Part shown: piece by piece, positions 3,090 to 63,465 of the stretch
How positions within the stretch are numbered: position 1 is the first letter of the stretch
Layout of the letters: each line of letters opens with the position of its first letter
Source of the DNA: Desmodesmus armatus
Lineage: Eukaryota; Chlorophyta; Chlorophyceae; Sphaeropleales; Scenedesmaceae
NCBI GenBank assembly: GCA_007449985.2
Contig: VIIQ02000811.1
Location: forward strand, 1 to 64,000
DNA: 64,000 nucleotides
Direction: 5' to 3'
The notes under the pieces: model-generated
What the model was told of the DNA's origin: nothing
The model's database searches: none
Seen by the model: only the letters and a program-made list of their open reading frames with translations
Position numbers and translations under genes: made by a program

Positions 3090-6000
3090 GCCATCGTCCA
3101 GAGCTTCCTAGGGTTTGGCCTGCAAGGCCTCAAACCCCGCATGGGGGGCTGGGGGTGGGCCGAGCTGCAGGACATCAACGCGGCTATTCACTGGCAGGTG
3201 GGTGGATATGTAGACAGAGAGCGAGCATCAACCGTGACGAGCCATTTAAAAGGGGAAGTCAACGTATTAACTGTGTCGAAAGCATTGACGCTGTGTGTGT
3301 GTGGGGGGGCGGGGGGCGAGGAGTCGCCTGTGGGGGGGGGGGGGGGGGTGACCAACAGCAGGGGTGGTTTTGTGGGGCCTGGGGGTGGGTCGGAGCTGCA
3401 GGAAATCAATGCGGCCATACACTGGCAGGTGGGTGGGGAGCGGGGAGCGGGGGGGAGCGTCAACTTGAAGGTGGTGGGGACCGGGGAGGAAAAGGGGGGG
3501 CACAAACCTACATGTGCGCCAAGCCAGGCTCCACGTGCCCAGGCAATGGTACTGTGGGCCACAATATGTTTTTACTGATATGTAGTTCTGGCCAGGGTCA
3601 GTGGCCATGGGCATAGAGCCAGAACACTGCCCCAAGGGAAAATGGCAGAATGAATGATCTTTACTACCCTAGAGCCTTGCCTGTATCTAGCCATTTGCCG
3701 CATCCCCATATATCACAGATACTGTGAGAACTGACCAAGTTATTCCGGATTTCCAAGCATCATGTTGCGCATCTTCGCACTGAATGTCACCCATTGCAGG
3801 ATTGGGCCAGCTGTGTGATCCAGCAGGCCTCACGGGGTGAGCTGGACTCAGCAGCACCAGCAGCACCAGCAGCAGCAGCAGCAGTAGTGAGTGGCGGCAG
3901 CAGTCTGTCAGCCACCACACCGCGGCGGCTGAGGGTGGCGGATGCACGGCAGCAGCACCAGCAGCACCAACAGGTGGAGATGCAGACACTAGGTAGGTGG
4001 ATTGGGGGGGGGGGGGTGTAGAGAAGGGGGGGCTGAGGAGGATGGGGGATGCACGGCAGCAGCACCAACAGTGGAGATGCAGACGTTAGGTAGGCATGCC
4101 TCTGTTCTGGGGGGGGGGGTGTAAGGGGTTGGCTGATGCACGGCAGCAGCACCAGCAGCACCAGCAGGTGCAAGTGCAGACACTAGGTAGGTGGGTTGGC
4201 TTGCACGGATCGAAACCAAGCGCGCCCGCACCCGTTGGCGCACACACCAGCAGGCGGACGCCCGCTCTCGCACCCACTCATGCACACCACATGGCGCTGC
4301 CATCGTTCTACTTTTTGCAAAACCCACACGTATTGCCTGCAGGCTTGTCGTCGCCTGGCTACACTGCAGGGCCGATGTCCCCTGTCAATCTGTCAGCAGC
4401 TGGGGTACCTCTGCCCAGGGGACAGGTGAGTGATCATGTGCACAGATTTTGCTAGCAACTCCCAGCTCCTGGTGGTGCAGAACCCTGCTTGCCTGAAGTC
4501 CTGAACAGTGTTGAGACAGCTATTACACACACAAGCAAGCGAGTTCACGTCACCTGTATGTGGTTTGCTTACAACTTGACATCGGATGTCAACAGGGGCG
4601 GCAACATGGATGATATGTTGGCTGGGCGGCGCAGTGTTCTGCTGCTGGCAGCAAAATGCATGTTCTTTTGTTGTAGATCAGTTGCTCTAGCTGCTTTACA
4701 TTATAGCCAAATGCAATCTGGTGTGTGGCTGTGCTGTGGCGTGCCGTGCTGTGTGCAGGCGCCCCCTGTGATGAGTCAACCCTCTGTGGTCGCATCCCCT
4801 GCAGCACTAGCAGCACTTGCAGGTGCGTTGACTAAGTGACACATGTCACATGTCACTCATGACAGTCACACCTCAACGAGCTCACATGCGGCAAGCACTG
4901 TCACAGGTGTAACTACTACATGTATGCGTCTACGCATGCCGCAGATGTTTGTGTATGCAGCACATGCACTCTGAAGAACTTCAACGTCAACGTTGACCAA
5001 GACAGATTGCATTGCTGGCTGCACAGCTGGATGCCATTGTTGTCTGGCACGGGTTATGGACACGACCGACATGCAGTGTGCTGCGGGCTGCTGCTGCTGC
5101 TGCTGCTGCTGCTGCAGCTGTGTTGCCGCCGCTTCACCAAGGCAACCCCTGGCTGTGCTATACAGCACTGCTAGGGATGGAATCAGCCTGGCCACACTTA
5201 TGCGCAAGGCTGAAAAGGTACGCGGGGGGGGGGGGGGGGTATCGGGGGGACGGTGGTCCTCTTGGGTTGCAGGGAGGGGGTGGTTTGGTTGTTGAAGGGA
5301 TGACATCAGCCTGGCCAGACTCATGTGCTGCAAGGGCAACAAGGGGAGCGGGGGCAGCACACATTGTATTTGGTTCATGTAGAGTAGTAGCGTCCAACTC
5401 AGTGCTGGTTGCCTCCCTTCTGTAGTTGGAGTCAGCTGCAGCGTCGCTGCTTGTGCACAAGAGCTCCCTGGCTGGGCCTTCCCTTGCCGAAGGCTAGGCG
5501 AGAGCTACCTGGCTTTGCCCTAGGGCAGAGAAGAAAAAAGCCCAGAGCTGAGGCAGCTGCCGCCCATCCTATCCTATCCTATCCTTCGGCTAGTACCAAC
5601 GCTGATGCAACGATGTTATCCTTTTTGTGCACAGGTTGCTCCCTCGCTGCTGCTGGTGAAGGACTGTGGGGGTGCTGTGTTTGGCGCATATGTTGTCAAC
5701 CTGAACCCTAAACCCCTGAACCCTGAACCCCTAAAACCCAACCCTAAACCTTTTGCGCACAGGTTGCTCCCTCGCTGCTGCTGGTGAAGGACTGTGGGGG
5801 TGCTGTGTTTGGCGCATATGTTGTGGATGCCTGGCGCTTCAGCCCACGCTTCTACGGCTCGGGAGAGACGTTCGTGTTTCAGGTGGGTGATGCCCGAACA
5901 ACAGTGGCACTTGTTGATGCACAACCCTTATGCGCAATGCTATGCGCAACATCAGTGGTAATGTGTCTTGCCAATCAGCGAGCCCACACTTCTATGGCTC

Positions 6001-63465: not shown

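Follow-up and report, generated by a model that had tools for sequence, protein, structure and literature searches.

Genes of Desmodesmus armatus carry, within their introns, copies of half an exon together with one splice site, a pattern that is ordinary in kind and remarkable in density. The window, by which we mean the whole stretch of 64,000 nucleotides analysed here, is part of contig C772 (80.7 kb) in an assembly of 115.8 Mb and 831 contigs. Self-BLAST of the window (E ≤ 1e-5, dust on) returned 73 direct pairs lying up to 1.5 kb apart, covering 18.8% of bases, and no inverted ones. Clusters of these pairs in or overlapping six genes, read against curated exons, gave 28 loci: 21 that straddle a single splice junction, 6 confined to introns and 1 internal to an exon. 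In those 21 of the 28, the copied stretch contains part of an exon and one splice site. Extra exon pieces in the introns of the six genes had been reported in a first-pass annotation of the same DNA, and the self-BLAST bears this out. The account that we consider probable is that small local duplications are frequent, that those straddling a splice junction are tolerated, and that the intronic copies then decay.

Gene models came from a home-made HMM followed by curation by eye, and the assignment of working exon and copy within each pair was our own choice, made from reading frame and exon length. When nine PRP39 exons were joined with the copies left out, they formed one frame with 0 stops. 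Junction pairs in the self-BLAST list had E-values of 2.5e-8 or lower, which excludes chance matches (the limit was 1e-6 for this list and 1e-5 for the pair counts). The script itself had split the 28 loci into 22 junction and 6 intron-only; the CAG-repeat locus at 41618 (period 135) has its first copy, and the greater part of its second, inside a predicted exon, and we therefore reassigned it as exon-internal. The LRR locus at 38790-39344, counted among the 21, also touches the next predicted acceptor. Outside the six genes, the window holds four repeat clusters, the largest with 15 pairs at 16.9-20.0 kb. Pfam supports the gene names TLDc, nucleoplasmin-like, LRR, PsbP and PRP39 given at first pass; "rhomboid" was left unconfirmed by the one exon tested.

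Two forms of copy recur: donor-type copies hold the end of an exon and its 5' splice site, and acceptor-type copies hold the 3' splice site and the start of an exon. In the TLDc gene, the following were found:

3144..3436, + strand: the end of exon 3090-3197 and its 5' splice site recur at 3374-3436 in the following intron (donor type); 88.9% over 63 columns, the intron sides not significantly alike.
3931..4199, + strand: donor-type copies at ~4038-4094 (71.9%) and ~4127-4199 (90.4%) of an exon end at ~3990 that was assigned by hand and whose reading frame is uncertain.
5623..5824, + strand: the start of exon 5763-5882 recurs as an acceptor-type copy at 5623-5696; 98.6% identity.
5841..6111, + strand: donor-type copy of the end of exon 5763-5882, with homology continuing into the intron (intron z 14.0).
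6503..8002, + strand: exon 6418-6600 followed by eight intronic donor-type copies (self-BLAST pairs and exon-copy alignments).

The copies at 5623-5696 and 5751-5824 have the highest identity among the junction loci (98.6%) and enclose a telomere-like, CCCTAAA-like spacer at 5697-5750. Contigs that start with CCCTAAA arrays include, among the matches listed, C43, C203, C277 and C311. On the - strand, stop-broken open frames (624-3003) reach to a point shortly upstream of the TLDc exon at 3090; we take them to be non-LTR retrotransposon-like, with a YADD reverse transcriptase motif.

The nucleoplasmin-like gene carries copies of both forms:

24034..24320, - strand: the start of exon 23962-24068 recurs as an acceptor-type copy at 24197-24320; 84%, intron part homologous (z 18.1).
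24423..24879, - strand: the end of exon 24825-24919 recurs as a donor-type copy at 24423-24482; 95% over 60 nt, with a 337-nt spacer in which the spacer-flank comparison found no homology to the flank.
25270..25460, - strand: the start of exon 25168-25300 recurs as an acceptor-type copy at 25423-25460; 94.7% over 38 nt.
26794..27280, - strand: end of exon 27232-27394 and two donor-type copies (self-BLAST pairs, exon-copy alignments).
28303..29173, - strand: end of exon 29097-29253 and donor-type copies (self-BLAST, clustering).
29502..30952, - strand: end of exon 30795-31021 and five donor-type copies, an acidic stretch (self-BLAST pairs, exon-copy alignments).
30934..31381, - strand: two acceptor-type copies of the start of exon 30795-31021 (self-BLAST pairs, exon-copy alignments).
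31384..31845, - strand: two donor-type copies of the end of exon 31787-31929 (self-BLAST pairs, exon-copy alignments).
32120..32180, - strand: a weak copy, of acceptor type, that matches the start of exon 31787-31929; targeted alignment only (51 nt, 10 differences).

The LRR, PsbP, "rhomboid" and PRP39 genes contribute the remaining copies:

38790..39344, + strand: LRR, the end of exon 37293-38851 recurs, together with intron sequence, in a donor-type tandem copy at 39035; z 42.8, the intron alignment spanning 162 columns at 91%.
40743..41040, + strand: LRR, the end of exon 40683-40793 recurs in a donor-type copy at 40959; z 6.1.
46637..46888, - strand: PsbP, the end of exon 46847-46986 recurs as a donor-type copy at 46637-46700; self-BLAST pair.
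52412..53833, - strand: "rhomboid", three acceptor-type copies of the start of exon 52356-52576; self-BLAST, clustering.
57163..57493, + strand: PRP39, the end of exon 57060-57227 recurs as a donor-type copy at 57417-57493; 89.6%.
57624..57913, + strand: PRP39, the start of exon 57881-58439 recurs in an acceptor-type copy, and the tandem repetition extends into the intron; z 14.4.
58929..59250, + strand: PRP39, two acceptor-type copies of the start of exon 59187-59418; self-BLAST pairs.
59895..60259, + strand: PRP39, the start of exon 60139-60374 recurs as an acceptor-type copy at 59895-60014; 90.2%, no homology being found between spacer and upstream flank.
60478..60674, + strand: PRP39, a weak copy, of acceptor type, that matches the start of exon 60636-60845; targeted alignment only (43 nt, 7 differences, 3 gaps).

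Twenty of the 23 copies or ranges listed in the first-pass annotation recur in the self-BLAST list, and those at 32178 and 60475 were recovered by targeted alignment alone. The LRR copy placed at 35925 is unsupported, with CAG-type matches only. Two junction loci, 3931-4199 and 28303-29173, were absent from that earlier list.

Several other repeats lie in or near these genes. A 20-bp/100-bp minisatellite occupies 53830-54153 in an intron of the "rhomboid" gene, and one repeat family has direct copies at 16862-20882 and a member in inverse orientation inside a PRP39 intron (61852-62177). Perfect TGC and CTG runs lie at 34605-34745 (141 nt) and 39442-39614 (173 nt); within a predicted exon, one frame of the second run would encode poly-alanine. 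Two tRNA-Thr (TGT) genes, 92% alike, are found at 8942-9013 (-) and 62246-62317 (+).

At all 21 junction loci, read by eye, donor-type copies lie downstream of their exon and acceptor-type copies upstream, as had been claimed. This order follows from the geometry of tandem duplication, and targeting of junctions is unnecessary to explain it. If the duplicated unit runs from an exon into the intron after it, the exon is made whole by the first copy, and the second sits downstream in the intron with the 3' half and the donor. If the unit runs from an intron into an exon, the second copy works, and the first sits upstream with the acceptor and the 5' half. The earlier argument that the rule is too regular for random segmental duplication does not hold, as one-junction content and direction are already given by this geometry together with selection on the mRNA.

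Under the duplication account, small local direct duplications, often tandem and with a spacing of about 50-600 bp, would arise often in parts of the genome, either through slippage or when staggered breaks are repaired by fill-in. Selection would remove any that change the mRNA, and the survivors would be units confined to introns, units in frame within exons, and units reaching from an exon into a neighbouring intron. For a unit that straddles a junction, we infer that the spliceosome would still join the intact exon, leaving the extra half exon and its lone splice site inside the intron. The extra copy would then decay neutrally with the true exon under constraint, and the exon-derived part should consequently remain recognisable longer than the intronic part.

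The periods of the repeats agree with such a filter on the mRNA. Exon-internal periods are multiples of three in 11 of 11 pairs from 5 loci in a list compiled by hand (nine pairs at three loci in the first 200 kb of contig C545, one in the window and one in stretch L008), as against 3 of the 21 junction loci by smallest period (residues 3/8/10), a contrast that is somewhat inflated because predicted exons favour in-frame repeats.

Whether junctions are also over-represented depends on what is expected of tolerated duplications. With the observed periods placed uniformly over the six genes, 38% of tolerated placements straddle one junction on the present introns and 55% on introns shortened by the duplicated DNA, the latter null being our own reconstruction. 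In simulated decay, for which indel rates were assumed, junction copies were detected 1.26 times as often as intron-only copies, which brings the expected share to 44% or 60%. The observed share, over junction and intron-only loci, is 78% (21/27), with p-values of 0.0004 and 0.042 against these expectations; if intron homology is retained in only 10/24 cases, as the spacer-flank comparisons suggest, the expected shares become 60% and 74% (p = 0.041 and 0.43). A junction excess in the window is plausible, and its size depends on the null chosen.

The first-pass annotation had named, as one possibility, a DNA process focused on junctions, and the junction share above the simplest null is a point in favour of such a process. 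In one form of it, intron ends would be hot spots at which donor-side G tracts and acceptor-side C tracts stall replication or form R-loops or G-quadruplexes, concentrating breaks; we regard this as unlikely, though it has points in its favour beyond the junction share. In predicted introns of the window and C545, G runs of at least 7 are distributed over intron fifths from the 5' end as 12/9/7/5/2, and C runs as 1/4/2/7/10. Per kb, G/C runs of at least 8 are 9 times commoner in the window than in C545, and duplications are far commoner there too. Moreover, a run of at least 7 occurs in 20/22 introns with duplications versus 7/21 without (p = 0.0001). This last association was traced to runs within the duplicated stretch and to longer introns: counting only runs outside the duplicated stretch, the figures are 10/22 versus 7/21 (p = 0.54), and the median intron length is 752 with duplications versus 268 without. 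Runs within 40 nt of a copy were found in 19/35 cases against 15.6 expected (p = 0.11), a non-significant result on which G runs as the exact breakpoint were rejected, and the junction excess itself fades at an expected share of 0.72 or more. A role for G/C tracts in the duplications is possible but unproven.

A head-to-tail unit requires the spacer between copies to be homologous to the matching intron flank. Such specific homology was found in 10/24 comparisons, and an anchored test of intron homology was significant in 9/19; in comparisons D5a and D7 the spacer scored, but an unrelated flank scored higher. Some of the 14/24 comparisons lacking specific intron homology are 89-98% identical over the exon-plus-site part, and at 24423-24482, 59895-60014 and 5623-5696 homology stops within about 12 nt of the splice site despite 89-98% identity. 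The telomere-like filler at 5697-5750 would fit break repair with fill-in.

Spacers that resemble no flank are also what a mobile element would leave if it inserted with long target-site duplications, giving copy, insert, copy. At 46749-46784 the PsbP spacer contains a dispersed repeat, in a single copy, that has a 36-nt core and lies next to a C-run with (CA)n; the 31-nt centre of this repeat, at up to 3 mismatches, has 352 matches in the genome versus 0 for the reversed pattern, and reverse-transcriptase-like frames are present in the window. Nevertheless, the near-exact pattern of this one core, the only one searched, has a single match in the window, and spacers of different genes do not match one another in the self-BLAST list, so that neither a single inserted element nor one introner-like or mobile repeat family was found to account for the spacers within these searches. 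In our reading the PsbP element looks as though it was added to one copy of a unit of ~141 bp. We judge insertion to be a very unlikely origin of the copies.

The fate of the copies after duplication was followed by codon position. Over 39 exon-copy comparisons, which pool several non-independent copies of one exon, differences at positions 1/2/3 number 85/74/160 (donor-type, 51/46/114 in 25 comparisons; acceptor-type, 34/28/46 in 14), near the 1:1:2 expected with one side constrained and the other free. Changes unique to a copy, in seven families and likewise pooled over non-independent copies, number 32/29/32, and no purifying selection on the coding content of the copies was found in them. 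The exon has few changes of its own (9/5/6), and these lack the position-3 bias that exon constraint predicts. Because the copy-unique changes are even over codon positions, the copies are decaying and are not selected decoys.

Regulated decoy exons had been the alternative suggested at first pass; that the copies are decoy exons or splice sites maintained by selection now appears extremely improbable. A plausible splice site is retained in the copies, the exon part of the PRP39 pair at 57163 has 7 differences of which 6 fall at codon position 3, and the TLDc array is likewise rich in third-position differences. Yet the evenness of the copy-unique changes runs against selection, as do gaps not divisible by three in 18/39 exon-copy alignments (counted by eye), nor can a copy that has only one splice site make up a whole exon. 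The same PRP39 pair and TLDc array had prompted the reading that both copies are coding, as mutually exclusive exons; the ratio of about 1:1:2 over 39 comparisons and the even copy-unique changes led us to reject it.

Variants within arrays can also be divided by how many sequences share them. In the TLDc and nucleoplasmin-like arrays, variants present in at least two sequences fall at positions 1/2/3 as 3/5/14 and copy singletons as 18/15/18 (p = 0.039); only the TLDc array carries the signal (p = 0.002), the nucleoplasmin-like array giving p = 0.72. With the "rhomboid" array (shared 3/0/1, singletons 5/6/4), the three together give p = 0.037. Read with caution, shared and singleton variants may represent successive snapshots of a constrained exon. 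The idea can be extended: junctions would be true duplication hot spots through strand-asymmetric G and C tracts at the two intron ends, and introns would form a layered record of past exon versions because each copy freezes the exon as it was at copying, and variants shared between copies would be constrained as coding and single-copy variants would not. Taken jointly, hot spots and layered record seem to us unlikely.

Assembly artefact, for example two haplotypes assembled serially, has in its favour a draft of 831 contigs and homopolymer-rich sequence. The TLDc array, however, comprises 9 distinct sequences (the exon and 8 copies), pair identities span 68-99% with codon-position structure, and local copies are nearly absent from 200 kb of C545; we give this explanation hardly any weight.

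Other contigs were examined as well. The first 200 kb of C545, similar to the window in G+C and codon usage, hold 11 direct and 0 inverted pairs up to 1.5 kb apart, covering 0.8% of bases and forming 5 loci (3 exon-internal, 2 single-junction). Uniform occurrence over the genome is thus unsupported, as C545 is far sparser than the window. Clear single-junction copies, read by eye from predicted gene models, occur in 9/24 other stretches (C812, C117, L013, L003, L006, L008, L038, L044 and L048), of which 5 had come from a peptidase search and 19 had been picked for a repeat element; among the stretches not picked for repeats, the share is 3/5. A tenth, L005, is ambiguous, both copies being predicted as exons. 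Some of the remaining pairs in the 24 stretches are exon-internal, ambiguous or intergenic, and one inverted local pair was seen in these other stretches, in L008. Since clear copies occur in 9/24 stretches and C545 is sparse, several contigs are involved and the density is patchy.

Duplication across a junction is already known. The potato RdRp gene has a tandem genomic duplication across an intron-exon boundary (PMC4974935). Potato is a single case, with an intron gained anew and confirmed by RNA reads, whereas the window has 21 loci, recognised from DNA alone. Intron gain through exon tandem duplication in Drosophila (PMC2891723) is alike in that a local tandem duplication leaves one copy hidden by splicing; it differs in that there a proto-splice site is duplicated inside coding sequence and an intron is born, and in the window half exons come to lie inside introns that were already present. 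In human and mouse cells, tandem duplications described as shorter than 100 bp are ascribed to Pol alpha-primase, which fills in staggered breaks before end joining (PMC8355091); they share the short direct form, but many spacings here are longer and the present events are known from sequence alone. For mammals, interstitial telomeric repeats inserted at break repair are reported (PMC2246262, PMC7215372); telomere-like repeats between copies at 5697-5750 are the likeness, and the difference is that we have one case, which lies between two copies of a 74-bp stretch that includes a splice site. No comparable density of boundary-crossing duplications was found in the titles and abstract openings searched, in which subscription journals are thinly covered.

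If the density seen here is confirmed, this genome offers a natural experiment on small tandem duplications passing the splicing filter, in which the duplication rate, the decay of decoy splice sites and the lengthening of introns become measurable. Tolerated events genome-wide may number at least a thousand, extrapolated solely from the 2 per 200 kb in C545, compared with isolated cases in the papers that the literature search brought up. Gene finders may mistake the copies for exons, as our home-made HMM did here.

Two further observations concern the genome at large. The motif (GT)5(G)10 occurs 3818 times genome-wide versus 19 for the reversed motif, with 14 in the window. Finally, a photosystem II D1 protease fragment on C117 indicates that the host is probably a green alga close to the Scenedesmaceae: its near match is PDB 1fc6/1fc7 (E 2e-42), a Scenedesmus obliquus entry.
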